Source: Orientallactaga sibirica (taxonomy: Eukaryota; Chordata; Mammalia; Rodentia; Dipodidae). From it: DNA of 64,000 bases. This document shows, one piece after another, positions 3,001 to 63,465 of this stretch. A model generated the notes under the pieces. It saw only the letters and a list, made by a program, of their open reading frames with translations, did no database searches and was not told where the DNA came from. Position numbers and translations under genes: made by a program. Position 1 is the stretch's first letter. Each line of letters opens with the position of its first letter. The stretch lies in assembly GCA_036365145.1 (NCBI GenBank), contig JAEOAD010001177.1, positions 308,896 through 372,895 of the forward strand, read 5' to 3'.

Positions 3001-6000
3001 GTTTTTGTCATCTAACAATATGTACAACTTAATAGTTTCACCTCACTGCTAACTTAATATGCTTAGAAAACAAAAATGTTCATTGACAAACACTGTACTG
3101 TGTGAAGTAAGCTAGTTCTGCTCTCGGAATGAGTTGCTGTCATACGAAGAGGGTTGAGTGCAGCAAGTTGAACCTTTCCTTGTTCATGTAATGTAACAAG
3201 ATGTACAACATAGTAGATTCATCTCATTTCTAAGGTAGTTTGTTTAGAAAACAAACATGTTCATTACCAAACACTGTATTTACTGTTTGAAGTAAGGTAG
3301 TTCTGCTCTTGGAATGAGTTGCCTTCCTACGAATAATGTTGAGTGCAGCAAGTTCAAACTTTCCCAGTTTGTGTCATCTACCAAGATGTACAACTTAGTA
3401 TATTCACTTAATTTCTAAAGTACTTTGTTTAGAAAACAAACATCCTTATTGCTGAACACTGTACTGTGTTAAATAAGCTAGTTCTCTTCTAGGAATGAGT
3501 TGCTTGCCTATGAAGAGTGTTGAGTGCAGCAAGTACAAACTTTCCTAGCTTGTGTCATATAAGATGTACAACTTAGCAGATTCGCTTCATTTCTAAAGTA
3601 GTTTCTTTGCAAAACAAACATATTCATTGCCGAACTCTGTACTATGTTAAATAAGATAGTTCTGTTCTCGGAATGAGTGTCTTTCCTACGAAGTGTGCTG
3701 AATGCAGCAAGTTAAAACTTTCCTTGTTTGTGTAATCTACCAAGATGTACAACTTAGTAGATTCTCCTCACTTCTAACGTAGTATGTTTAGAAAACAAAT
3801 ATGATCCTTCCCGAACACTGTACTGTGTGAAGTAAGCTAGTTCTGCTCTTGGAATGAGTTGCTTTCCTTGTTTGTGTAATCTACCAAGATGTACAACTTA
3901 GTAGATTCGCCTCACTTCTAATGTAGTATGTTTAGAAAACAAATATGTTCCTTCCTGAACACTGTACTGTGTTAAATAAGCTAGTTCTGCTCTCGGAATG
4001 AGTTGCTTTCCCACGAAGAGGGTTGAGTGCAGCAACTTCAAACTTTCCTAGTTTCTGTAATCTACCAAGGTGTACAACTTAGTAGTTTCATCTCATTTCT
4101 AGAGTAGTTTGTTTAGGAAACATACATGTTCATTACTGAATACTGTACTTGTGTGTGAAGTAACCTAGTTCTGCTCTTAGAATGAGTTGCTTTCCTATGA
4201 AGAAGGTTGAGTGCAGCAAGTTCAAACTTTCCTAGTCTGTGTAATCTCACAAGATGTACAACTTAGTAGGTTAGCTTCATTTCTAAAGTAGTTTGTTTAG
4301 AAATCAAACAGGTTCAATGCCAAACACTGTACTGTGTGAAATAAGCTAGTTCTGTTCTTGGAATGAGTTGCTTTCCTACGAAGTGAGTTGAATGCAACAA
4401 GTTCAATTGTTCCTTGTTTATGTAATGTAACAATATGTAAACCTTAGTAGATTCGCCTCACTTGTATCTTAGTTTGTTTAGAGAACAAACATGGTCATTG
4501 CCGAACACTGTACTGTGTGAAGTAAGCTAGTCCTGCTCTTGGAATGAGTTGTTTTCCTATGAAGAAGGTTAAATGCATCAAGTTCAGACTTTCCTAGTAT
4601 GTGTCATCTAACAAGATGTACAACTTAGTAGATTCGCCTGATTTCTTACTCAGTTTCTTTAGAAAACAAACATGTTCATTTCCGAACACTGTACTTACTG
4701 TGTGAAGTAAGCTAGTTCTGCTCTTAGAATGAGTTGCGTTCCCACAAAGAAAGTTGAGTGCAGCAAGTTGAAACTTTCCTAGTCTGTGACATCTAACAAG
4801 ATGTACAACTTAGTAGACTTGCTTCATTTCTAAAGTAGTTTCTTTGTAAAACAAACATCTTCATTGCAGAACACGGTTCTGTGTTAAATAAGCTAGTTCT
4901 GTTCTCGCAATGAGTTGCTTCCCTATGAAGTGGGTTGAGTGAAGCAAGTTCAACATTCCTTGTTTGTGTAATCTAGCAAGATGTACAACTTAGTAGATTC
5001 GTCTCACTTCTATCGTAGTTTGTTTAGAAAACAAGTATGTTCATTGCCGAACACTGTACTGTGTGAAGTAAGCTAGTTTTGCTAATGGATTGAGTCGCTT
5101 TCCCACGAAGAAGGTTGACTGCAGCAAGTTCGAACTTTCCCAGTTTGGGTAATCTAACAAGATGTACAACTTAGTAGATTTGCCCCATTTCTAGCGTAGT
5201 TTGTTTAGAAAAAAAACATGGTCATTGCCGAACACTGTACTGTGTGGAGTAAGCTAGTTCTGCTCTAGGAATGAGTTGCTTTCCTAAGAAGAAGGTTGAG
5301 TACAGCAAGTTCAAACTCTCCTAGTTTGTGTTATCTAACAGGTTGTACAACATAGCAGATTCGCTTCATTTCTAAAGTAGTTTGTTGAGAAAACAAACAT
5401 CTTCATTGCCAAATACTCAACTGTGTTAAATGAGCTAGTTCTGTTCTCGGAATGAGTTGCTTTCCTACGAAGTGGGTTGAGTGTAGCAAGTTCAAACTTT
5501 CCTTGTTTGTGCAATCTACCAAGATGTACAACTTAGTAGATTCACCTCACTTCTAACATAGTTTGTTAGAGAACAAATATGTTCATTCCCGAACACTGTA
5601 CTGTGTGAAGTAAGCTAGTTCTGCTATTGGAATGAGTTGCTTTCCCACGAAGAAGGTTGAGTACAGCAAGTTCAAACTTTCCTAGTTAGTGTCATCTAAC
5701 AAGATGTACAACTTATTAGATCTGCCTAATTTTAAAGTAGTTTGTTTAGAAAACAACCATCTTCATTGCCGAACATTGTACTGTGTGAAGTATGCTAGTT
5801 TCCACTCTTGGAATGAGTTGCTTTCCCACGAAGATGATTGAGTGCAGCAAGTTCAAATATTCCTAGTTTGTGTCATCTAACAAGATGTACAACATAGTAG
5901 TTTTGCCTCAATTCTAAAGCAGTTTGTTTAGAAAACAAACATGTTCATGGCCGAACACTGTACTTTGTGAAATAAGCTAGTTCTGCTCTCGGTATGATTT

Positions 6001-7050
6001 GCTTTCCTATGAAGAGGGTTGAGTGCAGAAAGTTCAAACTTTCCTTGTTTGTGTAATCGATCAAGATGTACAACTTAGAAGTTTCAGCTCATTTCTAACA
6101 TAGTTTGTTTAGAAAACAAACATGTTCATTGCTGAACACTGTACTGTGTGAAGTAAGTTAATTTTGCCCTTGGAATGAGTTGCTTTCCCATGAAGAAGGT
6201 TAAGGGCAGCAAGGTCAAACTTTCCTAGTTTGTGTCATCTAACAAGATGTACAACTAAGTAAATTCACTTCATTTCTAAAGTAATTTGTTCAGAAAACAA
6301 ACAGGTTCATTCACGAACACTGTACTGTGTTAAATAAACTAGTACTGCTCTCGGAATGAGTTGCTTTCCTACGAAGAGGGTTGAGTGCAGCAAGTTCTGA
6401 CTTTCCTTGTTTATGTAATCTAACAAGGTGTACAACTTAGTAGATTCGCCTCACTTATATCTTAGTTTGTTTAGAAAACAAACATGTTTATTGTCAAACA
6501 CTGTACTGTGTCAAGTAAGCTAGTTCTGCTCTTGGAATGAGTTGTTTTCCCACGAAGAAGGTTGAGAGCAGCAAATTCAAACTTTCCAAGTTTGTGTCAT
6601 CTATCATGATATACAACTTAGTAGATTCGCTTGATTTATAAAGCAGTTTCTTTAGAAAACAAACAGGATCACTGCCGAACACTTTACTGTGTTAAATAAG
6701 CTAGTTCTGTTCTCGGAATGAGTTTCTTTCCTACGAAGAGGGTTGAGTGCAGCAAGTTCAAATTTTCCTTGTTTGTGTAATCTAACAAGATGTACAACTT
6801 CATAGATTCGCCTCACTTCTAACGTAGTTTGTTTAGAAAACAAAAATGTTCATTACCAAACACTGTACTGTGTGAAGTAAGTAAGTTCTGCTCTTGGAAT
6901 GAGTTGCTTTCCTACGAAGAAGATTGAGTGCAGCAACTTCAAACTTTCCCAGTTTGTGTCATCTACCAAGATGTACAACTTAGTAGATTCGCTTCATTTC
7001 CAAAGTAGTGTGTTTAGAAAACAAACATCTTCATTGCCAAACACTGTTCT
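1..7050. repeat. ~180-bp satellite tandem array, block 1
   Basis: Head-to-tail monomers, about 39 in this block. The landmark GTAGTTTGTTTAGAAAAC recurs at 8, 189, 370 and 550, giving a period of 180-181 bp. Each unit is AT-rich and contains a 19-bp dyad (GTTTGTTT-AGA-AAACAAAC), a stretch reading gaacactgtactgtgtgaag, and a gttgagtgcagcaagttc stretch. Monomers fall into recognisable variants: one with ttctcgg and gttaaataag, one with ctattgg, one with ctcttgg, and one with an extra tacttac insert. Their order recurs but is irregular. Some units are shortened (around 1690-1740 and 3840-3870). I saw no match to a CENP-B box. No coding potential is credible here. A centromeric or pericentromeric satellite is an inference from structure. 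Confidence 0.95.

Positions 7051-9943: not shown

Positions 9944-9986
<43 letters not shown>
9943..9986. repeat. (AAT)n microsatellite at the L1 5' truncation point
   Basis: A perfect run of AAT units where the L1a ORF2 sequence ends and satellite (gctagttctgttctcag) begins. The same junction and run are at 14930-14970 in the second L1 copy. Confidence 0.95.
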
Positions 9987-12061
9987 GCTAGTTCTGTTCT
10001 CAGAATGAGATGCTTTCCTGTGAATACAGTTGAGTGCAACAAGTTCAAATGTTCCTTGTTTGTGTCATCTAACAAGATGTACAACTTAGTAGATTCGCCT
10101 CACTTCTAACGTAGTTTGTTTAGAAAACAAATATGTTCATTGCCAAACTCTGTGCTGTGTAAAGTAAGCTAGTTCTGCTATTGGAATGAGTTGCTTTCCC
10201 ACGAAGAAGGTTGAGTGCAGCAAGATCAAACTTTACTTGTTTGTGTAATCTAACAAGATGTAGAACTTATTAGATTCACCTCATTTCTAAGGTAGTTTGT
10301 TTAGAAAACAAACATGTTCATTGACAAACACTGTACTGTGTGAAGTAAGATAGTTCTGCTCTTGGAATGAGTTGCTTTCCTACAAAGAAGGTTGAGTGCA
10401 GCAGGTTGACACTTTCCTAGTTTTTGTCATCTAACAAGCTGTACAACTTAGTAGATTCGCTTCATTTCTAAAGCAGTTTGTTTAGAAAACAAATATCTTC
10501 ATTGCTGACACTGTACTGTTTTAAATAACTAGTTCTGTTCCCAGAATAAGATGCTTTCCTGCGAAGACGGTTGAGTGCAACAAGTCCAAGTGTTTCTTGT
10601 TTGTTTCATCTAACAAGATGTACAACTTAGTAGATTCACCTCATTTCTAAAGTAGTTTGATTAGAAAACAAACAGGTTCATTTCCGAACACTGTACTTAC
10701 TGTGTGAAGTAAGCTAGTTCTGCTCTTGGAATTAGTTGCTTTCCCACCAAGAAGGTTGAGTGTATCAACTTCAAGCTTTCCTAGTTTGTGTAATCTCACA
10801 AGGTGTACAACTTCGTAGATTCACCTCATTTCTAATATAGTTTGTTTAGAAAACAACCATGTTCATTGCCGAACACTGTACTGTGTGAAGTAAAGGAGTT
10901 CTGCTCTTGGAATGAGTTGCTTTCCCACGAAGAAGGTTCAGTGCAGCAAGTTCAAACTTTCCTATTTGTGTAATCTAACAAGATGTACAACTTAGTAGTT
11001 TTGCCTGAATTCTAAAGGAGTTTGTTTAGAAAACAAACATCTTCATTACCGAACACTGTACAGTGTGAAATAAGCTAGTTCTGCTCTCAGAATGAGTTGC
11101 TTTCCTACGAAGAAGATTGAGTGCAGCAACTTCAAACTTTCCTAGTTTGTGTCATCTAACAAGATGTACAACTTAGTAGATTCGCTTCATTTCTAAAGTA
11201 GTGTGTTTAGAAAACACACATCTTCGTTGCCAAACTCTGTACTGTTTTAAATAAGCTAGTTCTGTTCTCAGAATGAGATGCTTTCCTGCGAAGACGGTTG
11301 AGTGCAACAAGTACAAATGTTCCTTGTTTGTGTCATCTAACAAGATGTACAACTTAGTAGATTCGCCTCACTTCTAACGTACTTTGTTTAGAAAACAAAC
11401 ATCTTCAGTGCCGAATGCTGTACTGTGTGAAGTAAGCTAGTTCTGCTATTGGAATGAGTTGCTTTCCCACGAAGAAGGTTGAGTGCAGCAAGATCAAACT
11501 TTACTTCTTTGTGTAATATAACAAGATGTGAAACTTATTAGATTCGCCTAATTTCTAAGGTAGTTTGTTTAGAAAACAAACATGTTAATTGCCAAACACT
11601 GTACTGTGTGAAGTAAGCTAGTTCTGCTCTTGGAATGAGTTGCTTTCCTACGAAGAAGGTTGAGTGCAGCAGGTTCAAACTTTACTACTATGTGTCATCT
11701 AACAAACTGTACAACTTAGCAGATTCGCTTCATTTCTAAAGTAGTTTGTTTAGAAAACAAATGTCTTCATTGCCGAACACTGTTCTGTGTTAAAAAGCGA
11801 GTTCTGTTCTCAGAATGAGATGCTTTCCTGCGAAGACGGTTGAGCGCAACAAGTACAAATGTTCCTTGTTTGTGTCATCTAACAAGATATACAACTTAGT
11901 AGATTCGCCTCAGTTCTAACATAGTTTGTTTAGAAAACAAACATGTTCATTGCTGAACACTGTACTGTGTAAAGTAAGTTAATTTTGCTCTTGGAATGAG
12001 TTGCTTTCCCACGAAGAAGGTTGAGTGTATCAACTTCAAACTTTCCAAGTTTGTGTACTCT
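9987..12061. repeat. ~180-bp satellite tandem array, block 2
   Basis: About 11.5 monomers of the same satellite as block 1. The block is copied almost exactly at 14971-17046: the offset is 4984 at the left end and 4986 at the right end, and the stretches compared by eye showed no substitutions. It ends abruptly inside a monomer at tactctaa, where LINE-1 3'UTR sequence (agggaccc) follows directly. Confidence 0.95.
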
Positions 12062-13130
12062 AAAGGGACCCTTGTCAATGGGGAATGTGGGTCAAGCATT
12101 GTGAGGTTGGTTAAGAGTTCTGGGGTTGGCCCCAGTCTCTGTGCATAATGCCCCAACTATGGCTCTAACAATCTTTCCGCCCCCTCTTCCGCCAGTTTCC
12201 CTGAGCCACATTGGGGTCATTTTAGTTCTGCTTCAGTGATGCGGTTCGGGAGCCTCTGTGTCTCTGGATCTCTGGCTTAGTTGGAGTTGGATGTTCTCTG
12301 TGTTTATCTCCTTTGGCCTTTTGCTGGTGTCATGATTGCCATGAATACTGAACTCTTGCCCTTCCCCTCGTTGTTCTATGGTTTCAGCTGGGGCCCTGGT
12401 GAGGTGTGGTTAGCTGATCCTCCCTTCAGGTTCGATGTCCACCTGAAAAAAGATAAGCAAATTCTCCATCGGAGAGAAAAGTTAGTACTAGGTAGAAGGG
12501 ATGACCATCTATGTTTTGGAGGGAAATTTATATGTGTTGGCTCTCTTCTAGCCCACATTTGGTGATATCTTGACCTTGGAGACTGAGCTCATTTTTGTTC
12601 CTGGTTTTGACTTATTTCCCAGTTCCAGCAATGAGTTCCATTCCACTGAGTGGATCTATTAGCCAAATCAAGAGCAGTTGGTTACCCACCATGGCTGTTT
12701 GCCACTACTGCACTTGTATGAGCATTACGTCAAGTTGTTTCCAGCTGGGTATCTTAGACTGCCAGTTGTTTGGACAGATGTCGGTCATTTTCCCCAGTTG
12801 CTTGTATAGCGCCCTCTGGTATTAGACTAGCTAACTGTCTGGGGACTGACCCTCTTCAGATTCTGAACATATCTCTTCGTGTTTGGTCTCACACACGTAA
12901 GCTGTCTTCAACAGTAGGGTCTTGCCATTAACCTTTGGTGGGTCACCAAGAACTCTGACAGAAGTCTGTCTATTTTTGGGAAACCTTGTAGGTGTTTCAG
13001 ATCAACAGCTCATTGTGGAAGTTCTCCCCATGCTGGCACTGGGAGTTATAAGTCTGCACCTAGGAAGATGAGGGAAGAAAAGATAATATAGAGGAGAAAG
13101 TGAGTATAGAGAGGGGAGGGGAGAGAACGA

Positions 13131-14927: not shown

Positions 14928-14970
<43 letters not shown>

Positions 14971-17900
14971 GCTAGTTCTGTTCTCAGAATGAGATGCTTT
15001 CCTGTGAATACAGTTGAGTGCAACAAGTTCAAATGTTCCTTGTTTGTGTCATCTAACAAGATGTACAACTTAGTAGATTCGCCTCACTTCTAACGTAGTT
15101 TGTTTAGAAAACAAATATGTTCATTGCCAAACTCTGTGCTGTGTAAAGTAAGCTAGTTCTGCTATTGGAATGAGTTGCTTTCCCACGAAGAAGGTTGAGT
15201 GCAGCAAGATCAAACTTTACTTGTTTGTGTAATCTAACAAGATGTAGAACTTATTAGATTCACCTCATTTCTAAGGTAGTTTGTTTTAGAAAACAAACAT
15301 GTTCATTGACAAACACTGTACTGTGTGAAGTAAGATAGTTCTGCTCTTGGAATGAGTTGCTTTCCTACAAAGAAGGTTGAGTGCAGCAGGTTGACACTTT
15401 CCTAGTTTTTGTCATCTAACAAGCTGTACAACTTAGTAGATTCGCTTCATTTCTAAAGCAGTTTGTTTAGAAAACAAATATCTTCATTGCTGACACTGTA
15501 CTGTTTTAAATAACTAGTTCTGTTCCCAGAATAAGATGCTTTCCTGCGAAGACGGTTGAGTGCAACAAGTCCAAGTGTTTCTTGTTTGTTTCATCTAACA
15601 AGATGTACAACTTAGTAGATTCACCTCATTTCTAAAGTAGTTTGATTAGAAAACAAACAGGTTCATTTCCGAACACTGTACTTACTGTGTGAAGTAAGCT
15701 AGTTCTGCTCTTGGAATTAGTTGCTTTCCCACCAAGAAGGTTGAGTGTATCAACTTCAAGCTTTCCTAGTTTGTGTAATCTCACAAGGTGTACAACTTCG
15801 TAGATTCACCTCATTTCTAATATAGTTTGTTTAGAAAACAACCATGTTCATTGCCGAACACTGTACTGTGTGAAGTAAAGGAGTTCTGCTCTTGGAATGA
15901 GTTGCTTTCCCACGAAGAAGGTTCAGTGCAGCAAGTTCAAACTTTCCTATTTGTGTAATCTAACAAGATGTACAACTTAGTAGTTTTGCCTGAATTCTAA
16001 AGGAGTTTGTTTAGAAAACAAACATCTTCATTACCGAACACTGTACAGTGTGAAATAAGCTAGTTCTGCTCTCAGAATGAGTTGCTTTCCTACGAAGAAG
16101 ATTGAGTGCAGCAACTTCAAACTTTCCTAGTTTGTGTCATCTAACAAGATGTACAACTTAGTAGATTCGCTTCATTTCTAAAGTAGTGTGTTTAGAAAAC
16201 ACACATCTTCGTTGCCAAACTCTGTACTGTTTTAAATAAGCTAGTTCTGTTCTCAGAATGAGATGCTTTCCTGCGAAGACGGTTGAGTGCAACAAGTACA
16301 AATGTTCCTTGTTTGTGTCATCTAACAAGATGTACAACTTAGTAGATTCGCCTCACTTCTAACGTACTTTGTTTAGAAAACAAACATCTTCAGTGCCGAA
16401 TGCTGTACTGTGTGAAGTAAGCTAGTTCTGCTATTGGAATGAGTTGCTTTCCCACGAAGAAGGTTGAGTGCAGCAAGATCAAACTTTACTTCTTTGTGTA
16501 ATATAACAAGATGTGAAACTTATTAGATTCGCCTAATTTCTAAGGTAGTTTGTTTAGAAAACAAACATGTTAATTGCCAAACACTGTACTGTGTGAAGTA
16601 AGCTAGTTCTGCTCTTGGAATGAGTTGCTTTCCTACGAAGAAGGTTGAGTGCAGCAGGTTCAAACTTTACTACTATGTGTCATCTAACAAACTGTACAAC
16701 TTAGCAGATTCGCTTCATTTCTAAAGTAGTTTGTTTAGAAAACAAATGTCTTCATTGCCGAACACTGTTCTGTGTTAAAAAGCGAGTTCTGTTCTCAGAA
16801 TGAGATGCTTTCCTGCGAAGACGGTTGAGCGCAACAAGTACAAATGTTCCTTGTTTGTGTCATCTAACAAGATATACAACTTAGTAGATTCGCCTCAGTT
16901 CTAACATAGTTTGTTTAGAAAACAAACATGTTCATTGCTGAACACTGTACTGTGTAAAGTAAGTTAATTTTGCTCTTGGAATGAGTTGCTTTCCCACGAA
17001 GAAGGTTGAGTGTATCAACTTCAAACTTTCCAAGTTTGTGTACTCTAACAAGATGTACAACTTAGTAAATTCAGTTCATTTCTAAAGTAATTTGTTCAGA
17101 AAACAAACAGGTTCATTCCCGAATACTGTTCTGTGTTAAGTAAGCTAGTTCTCCTCTTGGAATGAGTTGCTTTCGTACGAAGAGGGTTGAGTGCAGCAAG
17201 TTCTAACTTTCGTTGTTTATGTAATCTAACAAGGTTTACAACTTAGTAGAATTGCCTTACTTGTATCTTAGTTTGTTTAGAAAACAAACATGTTTAGTGC
17301 CGAACACTGTACTGTGTGAAGTAAGCTAGTTCTACTCTTGGAATGAGTTGCTTTCTTACGATGAAGCTTGAGTGCAGCAAGTTGAAACTTTCCTTGTTTG
17401 TGTCATGTAACAAGATGTACAACTTAGTAGACTCGCTTCATTTCTAAAGTCTTTTGTTTAGAAAACAAACATCTTCAGTGCCGAATGCTGTACTGTGTTG
17501 AATAAGCTACTTCTGTTCTCAGAATGAGTTGCTTTCCTGCGAAAAGGGTTGAGTGCAGCAAGTTCAAATTTTCCTTGTTTGTGTAATCTAACAACATGTA
17601 CAACTTAGTAGATACGCCTCACTTCTAACCTAGTTTGTTTAGAAAAAAAATATGTCCATTGCCAAACACTGTACTGTGTGAAGTAAGCTAGTTCTGCTAT
17701 TGGAATGAGTTGGTTTCCCACGAAGAAGATTAAGTGCAGCAAGATCAAACTTTACTTGTTTGTGTAATCTAACAAGATGTAAAACTATTAGATTCACCTC
17801 ATTTCTAACATAGTTTGTTTAGAAAACAAACATCTTCAGTGCCGAATGCTGTACTGTGTTAAATAAGCTAGCTCTGTTCTCAGAATGAGTTGCTTTCCTG

Positions 17901-20728
17901 CGAAAAGGGTTGAGTGCAGCAAGTTCAAATTTTCCTTGTTTGTGTAATCTAACAAAATGTACAACTTAGTAGATTGGCCTCACTTCTAACCTAGTTTGTT
18001 TAGAAAAAAAATATGTTCATTGCCAAACACTGTACTGTGTGAAGTAAGCTAGTTTTGCTATTGGAATGAGTTGGTTTCCCACAAAGAAGATTAAGTGCAG
18101 CAAGATCAAACTTTACTTGTTTGTGTAATCTAACAAGATGTACAACTTATTAGATCCACCTCATTTCTAACATAGTTTGTTTAGAAAACAAACATGTTCA
18201 TTGCCAAACACTGTACTGTGTTAAATAAGCTAGTTCTGTTCTCGGAATGAGTTGCTTTCCTGCAAAAAGGGTTGAGTGCAGCAAGTTCAAATTTTCCTTG
18301 TTTGTGTAATCTGACAAGATGTACAAATTAGTAGGTTCACCTCATTTCTAACATAGTTTGTTTAGAAAACAAACATGTTCATTTCCGAACACTGTACTTC
18401 CTGTGTGAAGTAAACTAATTCTGCTCTTGGAATAAGTTGCTCTCCCACGAAGAAGGTTGAGTGCAGGAAGTTCAATCTTTCCTAGTTTGTGTAATCTAAC
18501 ATGATATACAACTTAGTAGATTCGCTTCATTTATAAAGTAGTTTGTTTAGAAAACAAACAGGATCATTGCTGAACACTACTGTGTTTAATAAGCTAGTTC
18601 TGTTTTCGGATTGAGTTGCTTTCCTACAAAGAGTGTTGAGTGCAGCAAGTTCAAACTTTCCTTGTTTATGTAATCTAAAAAGGTGTACAACTTAGTAGAC
18701 TCGCCTCACTTCTATCTTAGTTTGTTTAGAAAACAAACATGTTCATTGCCGAACACTGTACTGTGTGAAGTAAGCTAGTTCTGCTCAGAATGAATTACTT
18801 TCCTACGAAGAAGGATGAGTGCAGCAACTTCAACCTTTCCTAGTTTGTGTCATCTAACAAGCTGTACAACTTAGTATATTTGCTACATTTCTAAAGTAGT
18901 TTGTTTAGAAAACAAACATCTTCATTTCAGAACCCTGTACTGTTTTTAATAAGCTAGTTCTGTTCTCAGAATGAGATGCTTTCCTGCAAAGACAGTTGAG
19001 TGCAACAAGTTCAAATGTTCCTTGTTTGTGTCATCTAACAAGATGTATAACTTAGTAGATTCTCCTCACTTCTAAAGTTGTTTAGAAAACAAATATGTTC
19101 ATTGCCAAACACTGTACTGTGTGAAGAAAGCTATTTCTGCTATTGGAATGAGTTGCTTTCCCACGAAGAAGGTTGAGTGCACCAAGATCAAACGTTACTT
19201 CTTTGTGTAATCTAACAAGATGTACAACTTATTAGATTCGCCTCATTTCTAACATAGTTTGTTTAGAAAACAAACATGTTCATTGCCAAACACTGTACTT
19301 TGTGAAGTAAGCTAGTTCTCCTCTTGGAATGAGTTGCTTTCCTACAAAGTATGTTGAGTGCAGCAAGTTCAAACTTTCCTAGTTTGTGTCATCTAACAAG
19401 ATGTACAACTTAGTAGATTCACTTTATTTCTAAAGTACTTTGTTTAGAAAACAAACATCTTCATTCCCGAACACTGTAATGTCTTAAATAAGCTAGTTCT
19501 GTTCTCATAATGAGTTGCTTTCCTGCAGAAAGGGTTGAGTGCAGCAAGTTCAAATTTTCCTTGTTTGTGCAATCTAACAATATGTACAATTTAGTAGATT
19601 CACCTCATTTCTAACATAGTTTGTTTAGAAAACAAACATGTTCATTTCCGAACACTGTACTTACTGTGTGAAATAAGCTAGTTCTGCTCTTGGAATGAGT
19701 TGCTTTCCCACGAAGAGGTTGAGTGCAGCATGTTCACACTTTCCTAGATTGTGTTATCTAACATGCTATACAACTTTGTAGATTTGCTTCATTTATAAAT
19801 TAGTTTATTTAGAAAACAAAGATGTGCATTGCCGAACACTGCACTGTGTTAAATAAGCTAGTTCTGTTCTCTGAATGAGTTGCTTTCCTACGAAGAGGGT
19901 TGAGTGCAGCAAGTTCAACCTTTCCTTATTTATGTAATCTAAAGAAATGTACAACTTAGTACATTCGCCTCACTTCTATCTTACTTTGTTTATAAAACAA
20001 ACATGTTCATTGCCGAACACTGTGCTGTGTGAAGTAAGCTAGTTCTGCTCTTGGAATGAGTTGCTTTCCTACGAAGAAGGTTGAGTGCAGCAGGTTGACA
20101 CTTTCCTAGTTTTTGTCATCTAACAAGCTGTACAACTTAGTAGATTCGCTTCATTTCTAAAGTAGTTTGTTTAGAAAACAAACATCTTAATTGCCGAACA
20201 CTGTACTGTTTTAAATAAGCTAGTTCTGTTCCCAGAATGAGATGCTTTCCTGCGAAGACGGTTGAGTGCAACAAGTCCAAATGTTTCTTGTTTGTTTCAT
20301 CTAACAAGATGTACAACTTAGTAGATTCACCTCATTTCTAAAGTAGTTTGATTAGAAAACAAACAGGTTCATTTCCAAACACTGTACTTACTGTGTGAAG
20401 TAAGCTAGTTCTGCTCTTGGAATGAGTTGCTTTCCCACGAAGAAGGTTGAGTGTATCAACTTCAAACTTTCCTAGTTTGTGTCATCTAACAAGATGTACA
20501 ACTTACTAGATTCACTTCATTTCTAAAGTGGTTTGTTTAGAAAACAAACATTCTCATTGCCGTATACTGTACTGTGTTAAATCAGCTAGTTCTGTTCTCA
20601 GAATGAGATGTTTTCCAGAGAAGACCGTTGAGAGTAGCAAGTTCAAATTTTTCTTGTTTGTGTAATCTAACAAGATGTACAACTTAGTAGATTCGCCTCA
20701 CTTCTAACGTAGTTTGTTTAGAAAACAG
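14971..20728. repeat. ~180-bp satellite tandem array, block 3
   Basis: About 32 monomers. Bases 14971-17046 duplicate block 2. From 17047 on the array continues with new monomers, including a dimeric pattern where about 360-bp units beginning catcttcagtgccgaatgctg recur at about 17468 and 17831. A roughly 400-bp stretch at about 20070-20470 closely matches 10375-10790, including the unusual gtttgattag variant and the tacttac insert. The array ends inside the dyad motif (agaaaacag) where LINE-1 sequence begins. Confidence 0.95.
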
Positions 20729-35317: not shown

Positions 35318-37100
35318 ATGGGTCAAGGTAATAGTCAACTGCTTTTTGTACATATGCTTAAGAATATGCTTCGTGCTCAAGGTGCAAAAGTAAGACAGCA
35401 ACAGCTGTGTAATTTCTTAGATTTTGTGGAGAAGGTATGTCCTTGGTTCCCAGAAGATTGGACAGTAGATTTAGAAACTTGACAAAGAGTAGGGACCAAA
35501 CTTCAAGATTATTACAATGCCCATGGACCAAGTAAGGTCCCAGCAGATATTTTTAGTTTATGGACTCTAGTTAGAGATAGTTTAGATCCTAGACATGAAA
35601 GAGATAAAGTTCAATCAGAAAAATCAGCCAATAAAGCAGAACCGTGGCCTTTCAGTGCTAAGGAAGAAAGTGAAATTAAACCTTCTGCTCTGCCTGCAGA
35701 GCGGGAACATGGGCTCAAACAATTGTTTAAAGATGATTTTTCTGAGCCCTTGGATCCAGGAGATGTGGAGGAATTAGAGGAGGAAGCTACAAAATATCAT
35801 CAAAAGGAGGACTTTCCAACTCTTATTGCTTTTACAAAGCCTGAGGGTGAACAAAAAGAGAAATGTTCAGAAAGGTACAACACCTCCAAAGCATGGTCGA
35901 ATCTGTCTTTGCAAGTACAGCAACTTCAGGGAGGCATATTCAGGGAAGTCCAGCACCCACTATCTTAGCAGAGTTAGATCCTCCACCATTAGTGGAGAAG
36001 CCACCTGTAATTGCAGTAGCACAAAGACCTGGGGAAAACCTTATCCTTTCTCCTTGATGCACAACCCTCTTTGTCACCCTTGCAGGCTGCTATCTCTGAA
36101 GCAGCTCAGAGGGGAGAGAATACTCAGGGTTTTCAGTTATTTCCTGTAATTGAACAAGATGATGGTCAAGGGAATAGAGTGAGAGGACACACTCCTATTC
36201 CTTTTAAACAGTTAAAAGAATTGAAAGCAGCTTGTGTGCAGTATGGCCCTACTGCTCCTTTTATGCAAGCTATGTTAGAGTCATTGTCTTTTGAGGCACT
36301 TCCTCCAGGATACTGGAAACAAATGGCAAAAGCATGCTTACAGGAGGAGATTATTTGCTTTGGAATGCAGAATATATAGAGAGCTGTCAGGCCACTGCAG
36401 AAATAAATAGGACACAGGGGATACCTATTACTTTTGACATGCTTACAGGAGAAGGACAGTATCAGGAAATGGGGCAGCAATTAAACTTTGATCTTGCCAT
36501 TTATGTTCAAATTAATGCTGCTGCTAGGAGGGCTTGGTATAAACTACCATCTACCAGAAGAAGGACTGAAGACTTGTCAAAAATTAGACAAGGGCCTGAT
36601 GAATTATATCAGGACTTTGTAGATAGATTATTACAGGCTGCAAGTAGATTGCTGGGAGATTCAGAATCAGGACTTTTACTTGTAAAACAATTGGCTTATG
36701 AGAATGCTAATTCTGTTTGTCAAGCATCTTTGAGACCATTTAGGAAGAAAGGAAATTTGTCTGATTATATTAGACTTTGTTCAGATATAGGACCCTCCTA
36801 TAGTCAGGGTGTGGCCTTAGCAGCAGTGCTGCAAGGAAATCCAGTTAAAGAAGTGCTCTTTCAGCAGCAAAAATTTCCTAAAGGAAGAGTTGTTGGTCCT
36901 CCAGGAAGCTGTTTTAAGTGTGGACAAATGGGACATCATAGGAAGCAGTTTCCTAATAAACAGAAGGATGCTGCTTCTGAGAGAGAGCCAAGGTTGTGTC
37001 CAAGATGCAAGAGAGGTAAACACTGGGCAAATGAATGTAAATCAAAGCAGGATGCCTTGGGAAATCCTCTCCTGCAGGGAAACGGTGGGGAGGGGGCAGC
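35318..37100 (+). pseudogene. gag: ERV-A gag (matrix, capsid, nucleocapsid), broken
   Basis: Starts at ATG 35318 with MGQ, a myristoylation-type N-terminus. An in-frame TGA stops matrix after about 54 codons, and further shifts occur near 35870-35960 and 36060. Capsid is recognisable across 36071-36379 and 36334-36850 (RRAWYKLPSTRR, the major-homology-type stretch RQGPDELYQDFVDRLLQAAS). Nucleocapsid has two zinc knuckles at about 36909-37035. The first, CFKCGQMGHHRKQF, has Phe where the last Cys should be. The second, CPRCKRGKHWANEC, is complete. The GGGAAAC heptamer at 37077-37083 is a typical betaretroviral gag-pro slip site. Confidence 0.88.
37077..37083 (+). promoter_or_regulatory. Gag-pro -1 frameshift heptamer (G GGA AAC)
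   Basis: In the nucleocapsid frame the bases read as G GGA AAC, the X-XXY-YYZ pattern used for -1 frameshifting, and G-rich then C-rich sequence follows (37084-37108) that could pair as a stem. The gag C-terminal frame continues in a different phase to a stop at about 37232. Confidence 0.7.
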
Positions 37101-37722
37101 CCCAGGCCCTGAAACAATGTTATGGGGCACTACAGAGCTTTGTTCACCAACAAGGAAATACACTCAGGACCTCTTCAGAGCAACTCCAGGCAGCACAGGA
37201 TTGGATCTCAATTCCTCCACCTATGCAGTATTGACTCCAGAAATGGGGATGCAAGCCCTCCCTACAGGAGTTTATGGTCCTCTGCCAAGAGAGACTGTGG
37301 GATTATTATTAGGAAAAAGTAGCTCGACCATGAAAGGAATTTTAGTAGCTCCTGGAGTAATCAATGCAGATTTTGAGGGAGAGATCAAAATTATGACTTA
37401 TTCTCCTGGAGGAATATCAGTAATTAATAAAGGATAAAGATTGGCACAATTGATATTACTCCCCCAACTGCAAACTAAGAATGCTATTAAAAAAGCCAAA
37501 AGAGGTGATGCAGATTTTGGCTCTTCAAATGCTTATTGGATACAGGCCATTGGGTCTCAAAGACCAGAATTAACTTTATATATTAATGGAAGGAAGTTTC
37601 AAGGCTTGCTAGATACAGGGGCTGATGTTTCTGTGCTTACTGCTGATCAGTGGCCTCCTAATTGGCCTAAACATTTCTCTGTGACTCAGTTGCAGGGAAT
37701 AGGGCAAACTCAAAGTCCATGA
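37084..37722 (+). pseudogene. pro: ERV-A dUTPase and protease N-terminal part
   Basis: The nucleocapsid frame runs without a shift into a dUTPase domain: RATPGSTGLDL (about 37180-37212), LPTGVYGPLP, GLLLGKSSSTMKG (about 37305-37340), GVINADFEGEIKI. A TAA at 37435-37437 interrupts it, and the next codons resume the domain's last motif in the same frame (RLAQLILLPQ). An aspartic protease follows with its active site LLDTGADVSVLT at about 37605-37640. The coding sequence breaks off near 37722 where a MaLR piece is inserted. dUTPase limits uracil in viral DNA; protease cleaves the polyproteins. The domain order is that of betaretroviruses. Inactive. Confidence 0.88.
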
Positions 37723-49044: not shown

Positions 49045-49212
49045 TCAAAGATGGGTAAGATTCTCTCAGGTTAGGTCAACCTAAGACAGGGAATGAATGA
49101 TGAATGATGACATTCATGTGCCATTGATGAGTAAGGCCTAAATGTCATAGAGAACAACCAAAGACAGGCACAGTCTTTCTGCACCATTGCTTAGAAGGGC
49201 ATGGTTTTTTAA

Positions 49213-51929: not shown

Positions 51930-52513
51930 TGTTGGACCCTCCGACAGGTAGAGGCCATAGTGAAGAGGAACTGGTCCAGCCGGTCCCTCTCCAGGGCTGA
52001 ATGGGATGATGAGTGTTGACGACTCAGCCCTTCCTCCTAGGCGCCAGAGGAACTAAACACCACACTGAGTCGGGAGGCTGTCCAAGCAGGATCTCGTTTA
52101 TTGTATATCAAGACAGGTATATATAGGAAAATGCCAAAGAATAGAAAGGGACTTTCCAAAGAAACTTTTCCTGGTAGCAACAGGGGAGCCAGTAGGTGTA
52201 AAGGTCAGCAGTGGCATGCTAATCGGGAGAGAATTGTTTGTGAGGGACACTATGGAGACATGGGCTGTTCTAGTCAGGAGAGTATTGTTTAGGAGGAATG
52301 CTATGGAGACATGAGCTGTTCACAAGGAAACTATGTGTGGAACCCTCTAACGAACATTGGGAGGGTGTGGGGATGGTGCAGGGAAGGTAGGACTACATCA
52401 GCCATGCAAGGTGCTGTGTCATGCTCAGCAGGAAGTCAGAGACAGTGCTTGAAACTTTACTTTAGGCTTATCCATTTTCCTCTAGGCCAGAATCTTTTAC
52501 ATAGTGCCCAACA
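51930..52513 (-). repeat. ERV-B 3' LTR (left end)
   Basis: 584 bp with TGTTGG/CCAACA ends. On the minus strand there is a TATA box (cctatatata, 52118-52127) and a poly-A signal AATAAA (TTTATT at 52097-52102 on the plus strand) about 20 bases downstream, followed by R/U5 with gtcgtcaacactcatc. The left flank is GATGAT. Confidence 0.9.
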
Positions 52514-52533
52514 TCTCCCCCTTTTGTTTTTGT
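52514..52533 (-). promoter_or_regulatory. ERV-B polypurine tract
   Basis: On the minus strand acaaaaacaaaagggggaga directly precedes the LTR start TGTTGGGCAC. Confidence 0.85.
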
Positions 52534-52556
52534 AAGAGCGTCAGATCATCATGGCC

Positions 52557-52765
52557 CCTGTCTTAGATTGTCCCCCTCTGGGGACCTTACCCGTCACTGG
52601 GTACCATGTGTTGAGCTCGTTGAGGACCCACTCCATGGCCTGTCTTAGGTTGGTCTATGATCTGTAAGGATCTTACCCGTCTCTGACTGCCAGTGCCCCT
52701 GTTTGTTTGCACTGCGTCTGTCTTAGGTCGTCTCATGACAAAATCATAGCCTTACCCGTCATTGG
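52557..52765 (-). promoter_or_regulatory. Triple CTE-like RNA export element
   Basis: Three related blocks of 44-48 bases lie between the env stop (52804) and the polypurine tract: 52718-52765, 52639-52685 and 52557-52600 in virus order, at 79- and 82-base spacing. On the minus strand each has GACGGGTAAG at one end and CTAAGACAG at the other, identical in all three, with a variable self-complementary middle (for example GTCCCC/GGGGAC in the last block). These two words and the position are those of the Mason-Pfizer monkey virus constitutive transport element, whose internal loops bind NXF1/TAP to export unspliced RNA. The monkey virus element has two such repeats; here there are three. Function is inferred. 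Confidence 0.8.
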
Positions 52766-52803
52766 TCACATGGAGGGCAGGGGAGATTAGGAAGTAGATG
52801 TGA

Positions 52804-53430
52804 TTAGGGCACATTAATATCATCATGGTATGAGCCATAGAGGGAGGCAGGCGCTCGGGTGGCCAGCCTATGGTAATGAACTTCTACTTGATGGAGGCGG
52901 ATTTTATTGATTTGTCTCTGAATGAAACCAGTGAGCGCATTAATAACACAGGGTCCAAAAAGGAGGACCAGTACCAGCATGGTGAGGGGTCCTAGGAGGG
53001 GAAGGAGGTAGGGTAAGAAACCGCCCATTCCACCCCAGAACCCCCTCTTATTGGAGAGAATTTCTTGTTTCCGTTTCTCCAGGTTGTCTTGGAGCATCTT
53101 AATCCGGTCCCTCACCACTCCAGATTGGTTGACGAAAAAGCAGCATTCTTCCTGTAAGAAAACACAAAGACCTCCCTTTTCCGCAGTAAGGAGGTCGAGT
53201 CCCCTCCGATTTTGTAAAACTACTTGTGCTAGAGAGTTAAGCTGTTCTTGAACTGTGAGGATGATTTGTGACACTTCTTGAATGTCCTCGATCAATCTAT
53301 TTTCTAATTTATCATGGAGGGTGACAGCGGTGGTTAATCCAGCAGCCCCTGTGGCCACCCCTGCAGTGATTCCCAGCCCCACCAAGAAGGGGATAAGGGG
53401 GAGTGCGCGAAAAGCGTGCCTTTTCCACCA
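52804..53430 (-). pseudogene. env: ERV-B env transmembrane subunit
   Basis: Open from 53385 to the stop at 52804 (193 codons). It has a fusion-peptide-like start (LVGLGITAGVATGAAGLTTA), a heptad region, an immunosuppressive-domain-type stretch (LQNRRGLDLLTAEKGGLC), the covalent loop CVFLQEECC (CX6CC), and a transmembrane segment (LPLLGPLTMLVLVLLFGPCV) plus a tail with a YGSYHDD end. CX6CC marks gamma/type-D envelopes. A one-base shift near 53410, just before the fusion peptide at the expected SU/TM cleavage region, separates it from SU. The TM frame itself is intact. Confidence 0.88.
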
Positions 53431-57735: not shown

Positions 57736-58262
57736 TGTCAGACCCTCCGACAGGTAGAGGCCGTAGTGAAGAGGAACTGGTCCAGCCGGTCCCTCTCCGG
57801 GGCTGAATGGGATGATGAGTGTCGACGACTCAGCCCTTCCTCCTAGGCGCCAGAGGAACTAAACACCACACTGAGTCGGGAGGCTGTCCAAGCAGGATCT
57901 CGTTTATTGTATATCAGGACAGGTATATATAGGAAAATGCCAAAGAATAGAAAGGGACTTTCCAAAGAAACTTTTCCTGGTAGAAACAGGGGAGCCAGTA
58001 GGTGTAAAGGTCAGCAGTGGCGTGCTAATTGGGAGAGAATTGTTTGTGAGGGACACTATGGAGACATGGGCTGTTCTAGTCAGGAGAGTATTGTTTAGGA
58101 GGAACGCTATAGAGACATGAGCTGTTCACAAGAAAACCATGTGTGGAACCCTCTAACGAACATTGGGAGGGTGTGGGGATGGTGCAGGGAAGGTAGGACT
58201 ACATCAGCCATGCAAGGTGCTGTGTCATGCTCAGCAGGAAGTCAGAGACAGTGCTTGAAACT
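57736..58262 (-). repeat. ERV-B middle LTR, truncated
   Basis: 527 bp colinear with 51930-52456 at a constant offset of 5806, so it contains substitutions but no net indel. It stops at gcttgaaact and is followed without any bridging by env TM sequence equivalent to 52969 onward. The last roughly 57 bases of the LTR, the polypurine tract, the CTE-like element and the env 3' end are missing at this join. Confidence 0.88.
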
Positions 58263-59829
58263 AGTACCAGCATGGTGAGGGGTCCTAGGAGGAAGGAGGT
58301 AGGGTAAGAAACCCTTGTACCCCAGAACCCCACCATTGGAGAGAATTTCTTGTTTCCGTTTCTCCAGGTTGTCTTGGAGCATCTTAATCCGGTCCCTCAC
58401 ACTCCAGATTAGTTGTGAAAAGCAGCATTCTTCCTGTAAGAAAACACAAAGACCTCCCTTTTTCCGCAGTAAGGAGGAGGTCCAGGTCCCCTCGATTTTG
58501 TAAAACTACTTGTGCCTAGAGAGTTAAGCTGTTCTTGAACTGTGAGGGGATGATTGTGAGCACTTCTTGAATGTCTCGATCAATCTATTTTCTAATTTAT
58601 CATGGAGGTGACAGCGGTGGTTAATCCAGCAGCCCTGTAAGCCACCCTGCAGTGATTCAGCCCCCACCAGAAGGGGGATGAGAGTGCACATGAAAAAGCG
58701 TGCCTTGCTCCTACAGGGACAGGTATAGGCTCTGAATCCAAGATGATCTAGTCGTGGAAGAGAGATGTACACAGTACGCTATGCCAGAAAAGATTACCTG
58801 GAAATAAAGGGTAGAGTCCATCCACTTGAAGTGGGTAGAGTTGAGGAGGGGACAGAAAGTCTTATCAGGTGGCTGAAGTGAGTAGGTAATCATTTGGGAA
58901 CATGAAAGGGGTTTACTACCAAGAGGTCTCCTGGATCAGTTGAAGCAGGTAATATTACCTGAGGGGTGGAGTGAGGAGCTCAATGGGAGTAGAGATTTAG
59001 GATAAGGTTTATGGAGAGAGGGGTGAGGAGGTCAGTAGTCATTAAGAGAGAGGTGAAGCTACCAGTGGGGAGTATATGAGTATTGGGCCTTAAAGCCAAC
59101 AACCATGTGAATAGAAGGCTGAGTGGTGTTTAAGGTGGAAGAGGACTTAAGGAGGAACAAAGAGATTCATAGTCCAGGCTTTTAGGGTTCTAAATTATCT
59201 ACCATGGACTGAAATATTTGGGAGGCATTTAAGCATTGTGAATGACTACTTGTGGTGGCAAGGGGTGGTTGGGGAACCCAGACCTTTTGTACTTACTTTA
59301 ATTAGTCCATAAAGGGTCTCCCTTGCCGTCTATTCTAATGCGCCTCTGCCCCAGTTATCCAAATGGGATTGTTAGGATCAGGGATGTGATGTTTGATAGG
59401 GTTACACTGACCCGTTGTACAGGACTTTCCACTGGGCGGAGCAGTTCGAATTGCTAGTTAGGGCCTGTGTGACTGTGGGGGCAACTCCAGTATGGGCAAT
59501 GAGCCCTCTTAGGAGTTAAGCGCAGACACCCACTCTGTTTATGTGTTCAGCAGATATATTTGTGGTCGGTGGCATAGAAACTTCCCAATTGTGGCAGGCT
59601 CCTCCCAGTTGTACTTAGGGTTTGCAGGCATCAAAGTATATGTCACAGTTTTATCCTTTGTGCCATCATGGAGATGTGTTATTAAGAAGAATGGGTGGGT
59701 CAAATCCACACCCCAGTTACCCTGGAATTCCCAATGGCCCAGTTCTGATGGTCTTGTTTCTTTAATGTTGTAGTAAGTATTGAGAAGGGTGGTCATCAGT
59801 AATAAGATCTTCATCATTGAGGGTTTTTG
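58263..59829 (-). pseudogene. env: Second ERV-B env copy, indel-rich
   Basis: Colinear with about 52969-54547, but with a small insertion or deletion every few dozen bases, so no long frame survives. The signal-peptide Met stretch is still visible at 59832-59539. The TM C-terminus, stop and CTE-like element are absent. Confidence 0.85.
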
Positions 59830-61815
59830 CACCTATAAAGGGAGAAGAAGAAGGGAGGAAATACTCTCAGAGTGTCTTGTTCCTGGAGGAGAGTCATCGT
59901 ATTTTCATTGGGGTAGATATTTTAAATCTCTGGCCAGTATCCAAATAGGTCTTTTCCTCTTGAGAAAGCACATCCAAACTCTCTCCACACAGTAAGGAGG
60001 GGTCACGGTCCTCTCCAGTTTCAGTCGTGAATCCTCATCCCGGCCCAGATGGAGCTGTAAGTAACAGATGAGGACCAATGTTTTTGAAAAGGATACATTT
60101 TATCTTCTTTTGAAAAATTTAAAATATTTAGGAGTTAATAATGCCTTTTTAGTTGATCATGTGGTGAGATTCCCCTTTTGTTTTATGTTGAGACTTAAGA
60201 GTTTGATTATATCTTTCCACGATGGCCTGGCCCAGTGGGTTATCACAGGATGCCTGTGGAATGTGGGGTGCCAGGTTGGAGGAAATCCATAAAGGCCCAC
60301 ACTTCTGAAGCAGGGGCCATTGTCAGTTTTGACTTGATCTGGCAATCCAAGGGTGGCAAACATTGAGCGTAAGCGTTTAATAGTATGTTTAGTCTTTTCC
60401 CCCGAATTATTGTGCACGTTGCACAGCAAGCATGGGAAAGAAGTATCGCTGAGAGAAAAATATTAAGTTTCCAAGATGGAGAATAGTGTGTAACGTCAAT
60501 TTGCCAAAGGTGATTAGGGAGTAGCCACTCGTGGATTGGCTCCTGTAGTTTTGAAGAGAGTACCTGAAGGAAAGGCTTTGACCACAAGATCTACAGTTCA
60601 GACTATCTTTTAAGGTCCTTGACTGGCACATAGGATACTCGTTTTTTTAAGGCCCCTCCAGTGTACATGAGTCAGGTGGTAAAAGTGTGTAGCCTCTGAG
60701 ACAGAATTTTTGAGCCAGAGGCCAACTCATCAGCCAAGCTGTTTCCCATGAGAAATCCTGGTAAATTTTGATGGCCTCTAGATGTTGAATAAAAATAGGG
60801 TTAATTCTTTGTTAGAGTAGAGAGTCTTGAATCATCAAAGGGAGTTATAGGGTTGGAGTCTAACTTAACTTCCAATAGGTTGGGTGATAGGTTAACAACA
60901 AGACTATCAGAGAAACAGGTTAAAAGACTCCTGAATCATGTCCAATGCCAGGCGACCAGCGAACAGCTCTTTGAATTGTGCTGACCCCTCGACCTCATGG
61001 GAGGTGACTTTCTGGGAGCATGGCTCTTGTTCCTGTTTTAAAGGGTAAACAACTAGAGCTCCCAAGCGCCCTCCATCAGTGAACACGGTGAGAAAGTTAG
61101 GGTTGGGCTTGGACAGAAAGAGCCTGGGAGGTCTCCATTCCAGCCTAGAGAAGGAGCTCATCCATTTATAGGGACATAAATGACAATCTGTTGTACCCAG
61201 AAAACCATCGAGGGCTATAGCAATCCTGTTGTTATTTCTTTGAAACCAACTAGAGTCTGCTGTTTTTAAGGGAGTGATAATAAGGTGAGGTTCAGTTTAA
61301 ACAACTGAATGGTGTCTGCCGCTGGCCAAAATTAAGCAAGTTGGTTAGTCGAGAATAGACTCTGGGGACCCCGCCAATTGAGGTGATCAGTGAGGATGGG
61401 ATGCTGGGCCAACAGTGCAGTGCATAGTGTTTCCCCAGTGAAAATATAGAGGAGATGGGCGGGTTAAGGGGTCAAACCTTTTAAGTCACAGTGTCTAGCC
61501 TGTTGAACCTTGCATAATTTGTTTATGATGAGGAGGCAAGGTTACCTGAGGGAGAGAGTTAGGCCTTTAAGAGGTCAAACATAGGGGATAGCTGTTCAGT
61601 AGTTATGAGTATCCAAGGCCTCAATGATGTTTCCCCTAACTTTTGAGCTGAGGCAATGTATAGATTCCTGAATAGGCTGGGAGCGGCTGGAGAGACAGTG
61701 TCAAGAGATAACATGGAGCCAGTATTTTGAAAGGAGAGACAGTTTGAATCTTTTCTGGAGCCACCTTGAAATCATTGGCATGTAAAATGGCAGGAGAGAC
61801 GGCAATGAGTTTGTC
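59830..61815 (-). pseudogene. pol: Second ERV-B pol copy, indel-rich
   Basis: Colinear with about 54548-56625. Pieces of integrase (KTDNGPCF near 60330) and RNase H (FTDGGRLGA near 61085) are recognisable between frameshifts. It shares the capsid-to-RT-thumb deletion with the left copy (junction near 61815). Confidence 0.85.
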
Positions 61816-62792
61816 TACCTCTGCCAATTTCCATCAGCAATAAAAGTCAGGCAGGCCAGTGTGAGTGAATGTGCTCCAGTAGTCTGGAGATCAGATGGCC
61901 CATTGTATGAAGTAAGAGTCAATGCCCAGATTCCTAGGCTGCCTTGTGGATAAGAGCCAGATCAGTTTTCCTTACAGCTTTTGCTATGGGCAGCCTCGGT
62001 TCTCTCATCTTGGGGTGGCGTGCGTCCTGGAAAAGGTGCACCACTTTATAAATTGGGGCCTGAAAGGACAGCTTTGCAAGATTTTATGAAATCCTGTAGT
62101 ACATGGGTAGTGAGCTAGTTCTTGGAGGATGTTCTCTGCACCCAAAGGGAGTTAGGGCCATCCTCAGAAACTATACAATTCTTTAAGTCACTTGCTTCCC
62201 ATGGATACCAGCCAACGAGCGATTGCCATAGGGTTGATTTGCCAGAAGCGAGATTGTTTCATGTTCGAAAGTCTTGTCAGTTCCCGAGGGGGCAAGGCAG
62301 GCAGGAAGGGTTTAGGTTACCTCCTCGGAGGGCGTTGCTGGGAGTCCAGGGGTGGGGGCTTTATCAAAGGGTCCAGGGAGGGGGTATAAGCTTTATTCTC
62401 CTTGGATTTAAGGCCTTTTAGGTCTTTGTGAATTTCAGAGTATCTTAGCTTGGGGACAGCCTTTTGTTTGGTTATCGTCAGCTCTGGTGCTTCAGGGTTA
62501 GTTACCTTTTGTCTTAATTTGTTGGGCTGAGGGGAAGCAGCCCTTCAGTGCAGAAACAGTGGGGAGGACTCAAGAGGAGGACTTCTCCACATTCTATATG
62601 TCTTTCAGTGGACAAGAGTTTCCACACGGTCCCAGGTGTCCCAGTCCGAGACTGGCTTCACAGTAGCCAGGGGCCAACAGAAGAGAGTGTTGGCAGGCCT
62701 GTGTAGCCTAAATTAGAAAGTTTGGCCCAAACTCTTTGAGAAGTGAGGAGAGATTTAGAGCATAGTCTGGATTTAGCAGAAGATTGTCCCAT
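61816..62792 (-). pseudogene. gag: Second ERV-B gag copy, indel-rich
   Basis: Colinear with 56626-57636. The start codon position is 62792-62790 (ttgtcccat on the plus strand). Many one- to three-base indels break matrix and capsid. The primer site that follows (about 62867-62885) is also damaged. Confidence 0.83.
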
Positions 62793-62888
62793 AAAGGAGA
62801 TGAAGAATGCCTCCTATGAACCCGATTACCGAAGCAGTGTTTCTTCCAGCAGGCTATGCCTTGACCCCAGCCATTTGGGCGCCAGTCC

Positions 62889-63465
62889 TGTATCCAGACC
62901 CTCGACAGGTGGAGGCCGTGATGAAGAGGAACTGAAATTCCAGCCGGTCCTCTCCGAGGGCTGAATGGGATGAGTGTCGACGACTCCATGGCCCCTTCCT
63001 CTAAGCCAGAGAACTCAAACACCACACTGAATTCGGGAGGCTGTCCAAGCAGGATCTACGTTTATTACATATCCAGGACGGGTATATGGAAAATGCAAGA
63101 GTGAAGAAGGACTTTCAAGAAAAGAAACTTTTCCTGTTAGAAACTGAGGAGCTTTCAGTAGGTGTAAGTCAGCAGTGGCGTGCTAATTGGGAAAGTGTTT
63201 GTGAGGACACTATGGAGACATGGGCTGTTCTAGTCAGGGAGTATTGTTTAGGAGGCGCTATAGAGACACCAGGCTGTTCACAGGAAACCATGTGTGGAGA
63301 CCTCTAACGAACATTGGGAGGTGTGGGGATGGTGCGGGAAGATTGGGACTACATCAGCCATGCAAGGTGCTGTGTCATGTGCTCAGCAGGAAGTCAGAAC
63401 AGTGTGAGGCTACTTTAGGAAGCATCCATTTTCCTCTAGGCCAGAATCTTTTACATGGTGTAACA
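62889..63465 (-). repeat. ERV-B 5' LTR (right end)
   Basis: About 577 bp, colinear with 51930-52513 but with many short indels (for example ctgaaattccagccgg against ctggtccagccgg, and tattacatatccagg). It ends tggtgtaaca at 63465, followed by GATGAT, the same duplication as on the left of the block. Confidence 0.85.

Follow-up and report, generated by a model that had tools for sequence, protein, structure and literature searches.

The stretch that separates env from the polypurine tract in ERV-B, a provirus in the genome of the rodent Orientallactaga sibirica, is in our judgement quite likely a two-hairpin CTE of a type-D-like betaretrovirus, with three predicted NXF1:NXT1 loops that would each take up one heterodimer. 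The predicted export element (52777-52536, minus strand, in the 64,000-nucleotide stretch analysed here, hereafter the window) begins 26 bases after the env open reading frame and directly precedes the polypurine tract and LTR. Hairpin I (52628..52777, minus strand; 150 nt) is a long two-loop structure in the MFE prediction, formed by units 1 and 2 on the CTE plan, and hairpin II (52536..52618, minus strand; 83 nt) is a separate single-loop structure formed by unit 3 on the half-CTE plan, predicted by MFE and backed by compensatory pairs in related ERVs. Hairpin I would act as a canonical two-loop CTE, its two AAGACA-bearing internal loops in two-fold symmetry, and hairpin II as a half-CTE with one AAGACA loop. 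Each loop would directly bind one NXF1:NXT1 heterodimer, such that as many as three export receptors would sit on the unspliced RNA and on the env RNA, and nuclear exit would need no Rev-like protein from the virus. We infer that NXF1 binds every loop, that the element drives export and that the third site brings an advantage.

The element lies downstream of the 3′ end of env, which encodes the transmembrane subunit (52804..53385, minus strand; TLV_coat, PF00429), and is followed by a polypurine tract read from the sequence (52514..52531, minus strand) and by the 3′ LTR (51935..52513, minus strand), which starts TGTTGGG. This LTR is 97.9% identical over 522 bases to the 5′ LTR of the same copy (57741..58262, minus strand), which has no counterpart to the initial 57 bases of the 3′ LTR and is followed by a primer-site-like TGGCGCCCAACATGGGGC stretch. 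Eleven of the 522 bases differ between the pair (K2P 0.0215); the LTR pieces of ERV-A, a provirus elsewhere in the window, give a K2P of 0.0645 over 227 sites. Judged by its domains, ERV-B is a type-D-like betaretrovirus, as had been proposed: a betaretroviral Gag with p10 and p24 (PF02337 and PF00607) is combined with a gammaretrovirus-type Env (PF00429), the TM of which resembles syncytin-2 and other gamma-type TM chains. Searching viral_contigs with the ERV-B Env TM found no relative. A second ERV-B-like copy (58260-63460, minus strand) stands in tandem with the first, joined through the middle LTR; compared with the first it is missing ~510 bases that include the end of env, the export element, the polypurine tract and the beginning of U3. 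Elsewhere, the window holds large arrays of a ~181-base satellite (1-7050, 9981-12063 and 14965-20727), broken by L1-like pieces, with two satellite-plus-L1 blocks being ~99% identical; the L1 protein is at most 62% identical to any relative among the 120 matches listed. A B2-like SINE word matched twice, in weak agreement with the rodent host that had been proposed, and no match to the ID or B1 SINE words was found. ERV-A carries an Rfam RF_site8 Gag/Pro frameshift site at 37077-37129 (plus strand; 58.9 bits).

Two words, X (GACGGGTAAG) and Y (CTAAGACAG), define the units. A pattern search for X-N-Y units gave exactly three on the minus strand, all located after env and before the polypurine tract of ERV-B, and none in any of 100 dinucleotide shuffles of the window. 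The units occupy 52718..52760 (unit 1: X1 52760-52751, Y1 52726-52718), 52640..52681 (unit 2: X2 52681-52672, Y2 52648-52640) and 52558..52595 (unit 3: X3 52595-52586, Y3 52566-52558), all on the minus strand, and 121 bases lead from X1 to Y2. All six words are identical, three X and three Y, with divergent middles, in agreement with an earlier note on this DNA that had described three such blocks at this location. The spacing it gave, 79 and 82 bases, mixes two series: from one X start to the next the distances are 79 and 86, and from one Y start to the next 78 and 82; each value given does occur, but not in the same word. Its description of a self-complementary middle in every block likewise holds strongly for unit 3 only, as the middles of units 1 and 2 find their main pairing partner in each other.

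The MFE structure of 271 nt of the region has X1 facing Y2 and Y1 facing X2 in hairpin I, whose loops are thus shared between units 1 and 2, and X3 facing Y3 in hairpin II. Among 1000 sampled structures X1-Y2 was present in 995, X3-Y3 in 997 and Y1-X2, the weakest of the three predicted loops, in 750; the corresponding counts were 499, 500 and 398 of 500 samples in a 501-nt context, and 299, 300 and 226 of 300 in a 1301-nt context. When the words were held fixed and the rest shuffled, all three oppositions appeared together in the MFE structure of 0/300 mononucleotide and 0/300 dinucleotide shuffles, with a maximum of two. In each of the loops, ACCU or AUCU at the beginning of Y, ahead of AAGACA, is paired with GGGU in X. 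The prediction therefore sustains the view of a CTE-like element with its words in opposed internal loops. A scan of Rfam gave no CTE match at the gathering threshold or among 15 matches at E<=10, and Rfam 15 may hold no CTE model.

The three units contribute unequally to this fold. Unit 3 alone (52545-52612) is the best-folded part (z -3.83), whereas unit 1 alone folds no better than its shuffles (z 0.64) and does not form a loop of its own; the folding energy of the whole element is mildly low (z -1.77), with 6 of 200 shuffles equally good. Units 1 and 2 fold jointly at -44.3 kcal/mol, versus -11.4 and -17.7 kcal/mol for the single-unit segments. Given the predicted fold and its contacts, the element combines a two-loop CTE with a half-CTE and does not consist of three equal repeats, and the initial picture of three equivalent tandem repeats is replaced accordingly. 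The suggestion that the third unit adds a docking site fits the predicted X3-Y3 loop in the separate hairpin II. The other role envisaged for it, alternative pairings between units, would make the three words an RNA switch; unit 2 without unit 1 can indeed fold X2 opposite Y2, and the MFE structure of one genomic copy, L146, has X1-Y3 instead of the usual partners. Such a switch is nevertheless highly improbable, as the predicted equilibrium is one-sided (the 995 and 997 of 1000 samples given above) and the joint fold of units 1 and 2 is more stable than their separate segments.

To see the element beyond the window, we searched the genome (2.82 Gb) at the DNA level with the ERV-B element and scored 40 of 902 first-look candidates. 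Of these 40, 20 places align at 89-100% identity, 19 over the whole element and one over all but its last 11 bases; next, after a gap, come 20 matches at 83-87% that cover only the second half of the element. All 20 aligned copies span the three-unit layout, and all six words lie within two mismatches in 17, so the triplication is general in this genome. The exceptions are L146, in which Y3 is broken by an insertion, L147, in which X2 has three mismatches, and L148, which has lost Y1. Relative to the window copy there are 31 word changes in total, of which the CpG of X accounts for 18. All 20 loci give a match to the window-copy Env TM, mostly at 90-100%. A search for three perfect X words spaced as in ERV-B gave 8 places, each of them one of the 20 (reversed control, 2+1). 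The corresponding three-Y pattern gave 44 places versus 94 in the reversed control: 17 are ERV-B copies, all within the 20, 23 are tandem-repeat runs (18 at C1407, 4 at C1722 and 1 at C112), two lie at C1701 (L217, a tandem duplication), and L218 and L219 have Y only. This Y-only search of the genome found no ERV-B copy beyond the 20. Of the 20 copies, 19 form X3-Y3 in their MFE structure, 15 form X1-Y2 and 9 form Y1-X2, with only 8 forming the three together; we read the loss of predicted loops across copies as probable decay after insertion.

Related elements are abundant. The genome contains 2593 exact X..Y units (1274+1319; reversed control, 0+1), which include elements with two loops as well as hairpin pairs that have hairpin II in common. 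Hairpin II is common to ERV-B, L121, L126, L128 and L149-L158. Unlike ERV-B, these relatives have two predicted sites in two hairpins, their hairpin I being short and single-loop (41 bases from X to Y in L126). The two-unit relatives L121, L126 and L128 also have hairpin I flanks in common with ERV-B, and in them too the element is followed by the polypurine tract and then the LTR start; the window-copy Env TM aligns to the two-unit relatives at 36-58% where tblastn matches, with no match at L121 and L128. A third arrangement is found in L159-L161, which fold as a canonical two-loop hairpin with the words in X-Y-X-Y order; no third unit was found in the surrounding 2.5 kb. ERV-A has a two-unit CTE-like element as well (49050..49167, plus strand; X at 49050, Y at 49081, X at 49126, Y at 49159) with partly decayed words, located between a GP41-type env (PF00517) and the polypurine tract. 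Its predicted CTE fold is weak, with X1-Y2 in 385 and Y1-X2 in 156 of 1000 samples of 196 nt, and in 24 and 6 of 500 samples of 401 nt. To our knowledge, a GP41-type Env together with a two-unit CTE-like element is an unusual pairing.

Folding within single units was assessed on 53 distinct middles, obtained from 73 distinct units by a middle-end rule and merging. X opposes Y inside a single unit in 22 of the 53, against 5% of shuffles; the 31 misses include ERV-B unit 1, other units of two-loop elements, which fold jointly, ATTCCATG-type units and one spurious 9-base middle. L123, L125 and many other X..Y places belong to another abundant ERV family with X-ATTCCATGAGATGG-Y type units, which are single or doubled 149 bases apart, precede a different LTR start and rarely show local X/Y opposition. 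Another variant, at 1230-1531 of L217, is a two-loop type element in which a ~151-base tandem duplication has produced four Y words. The 2593 exact units thus represent a rich stock of CTE-like elements in one genome.

Sequence variation supports hairpin II. Across 32 distinct sequences, 786 of 896 cells are paired, compared with 37-55% in slid controls, an advantage that is inflated because one of these sequences supplied the structure. Core pairs 13-65 and 35-46 change from G-C to A-U and from C-G to U-A in L121/L122, core pair 18-61 changes from C-G to U-A in L128 and L168, and pair 9-70 is A-U, G-U or G-C in all 32 sequences. Two-sided changes affect 8 of the 28 hairpin II pairs; we count four of them, the core pairs 13-65, 35-46 and 18-61 together with pair 9-70, and leave aside pairs 3-79, 5-76, 6-75 and 8-71 because the basal stem is mostly unformed in the two-unit relatives.

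These changes bear on two further readings of the element. In one, only hairpin I works as a CTE, and unit 3 is a functionless relic of a past duplication. That would agree with the MPMV-type element, which PMC7551171 describes, in the portion available, as one stem-loop of 150-175 nt with two internal loops, and with the two-loop elements of L159-L161 and ERV-A, which differ from ERV-B in being without hairpin II. We nonetheless consider it unlikely: unit 3 is the best-folded part of the element, X3-Y3 is kept in the MFE structure of all but one of the 20 copies, and the hairpin II stem is kept by compensatory changes in ERVs with a single-loop hairpin I. In the other, the units form a neutral minisatellite-like repeat with no export role. 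Cellular TAP-binding repeats, reportedly the subject of a 2001 J Virol paper, are said to be minisatellites, and the duplication at L217 is a tandem one. However, the ERV-B units are not near-identical tandem copies, since their words persist around middles that differ; ERV-A and ERV-B both carry the element after env and before the polypurine tract, and in L121, L126 and L128 it likewise precedes the polypurine tract and LTR start; and a neutral repeat sits poorly with compensatory changes in hairpin II. We give this reading very little credence.

Whether the loop words themselves are under selection, as the earlier note had suggested, receives a divided answer. Between 11 units of different families, mean identity is 93% in the words, 57% in the middles and 51% in shuffled middles, although the word value is biased upward because the units were found through their words. 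To this extent different ERV families have the words, but not the middles, in common. Among the 20 ERV-B copies, 12 of 51 non-CpG word columns vary, versus 46 of 187 others (p=1), and purifying selection on the words is therefore not visible among them; conservation was judged per column, as a per-cell count would score the private change of L129 once per other copy.

Several features of the element recall the CTE of Mason-Pfizer monkey virus (MPMV) and SRV-1. SRV-1 half-CTE primers printed in the available part of PMC4330393 contain AACCTAAGACAGG and, reverse-complemented, GACGGGTAA, and the ERV-B words agree with them at 9/10 bases of X and 9/9 of Y. The same part of that source has one Tap-p15 accommodated per unit with AAGACA in an internal loop; AAGACA in an internal loop opposite the GACGGGTAA word is predicted three times in ERV-B. 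Hairpin I, at a predicted 150 nt with two loops, corresponds to the long two-fold hairpin of these viruses, the position after env and before the polypurine tract agrees, and the type-D genome with a gamma-type Env is common to both. ERV-B departs from them in the total number of sites, with a third opposed loop in a separate predicted single-loop hairpin where MPMV and SRV-1 have two sites in all. Like hairpin II, the gammaretroviral gamma-CTE is a single stem-loop with AAGACA and linked to NXF1, but, unlike the ERV-B element, it lies inside pol and is weak alone (PMC4174252, in part). The IAP RTE, MusD MTE and SERV-K/MER11 CTE are, like the ERV-B element, cis-acting export elements of ERVs; in MER11 its authors found no MPMV-type NXF1 loops, according to the part available of PMC11379458. 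A shortened-word pattern matched at least 120 stretches in viral_contigs, which we took to be chance matches of a short pattern and set aside.

Each CTE lobe is able to bind independently, and a two-fold NXF1:NXT1 platform has been modelled, as stated in the available text of PMC4330390. Four SRV-1 CTE copies gave a vector titre ~3 logs above that of one copy, with minimal effect of single and dual copies (PMC1904242, in part), and the single-loop gamma-CTE had little effect at one to three copies in the portion of PMC4174252 available. Given these small effects at low copy number, one extra single-loop site may add little. Among open-licence papers we found no natural CTE with three NXF1 loops; artificial multimers are known.

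It is possible, though we hold the idea only tentatively, that the number and layout of NXF1 sites are modular and evolving, such that a two-loop CTE gained hairpin II, as in ERV-B, and a sister lineage afterwards lost the apical half of hairpin I and was left with two single-loop hairpins. Parsimony, applied without a tree, suggests that the two-loop element came first, that hairpin II was then added and that the relatives later lost the apical half; recombination could also be the source of the pattern of layouts. If the modular scheme is true, ERV-B would stand as a living fossil midway from the double-loop to the split-site layout, and its odd third site would show whether CTE function depends on a two-fold NXF1:NXT1 platform or just on enough sites. 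One genome offers elements of three kinds: some have two predicted sites in a single hairpin, some have one in each of two hairpins, and some have three. With these three natural layouts side by side, the role of site number and symmetry in export becomes testable with natural sequences.
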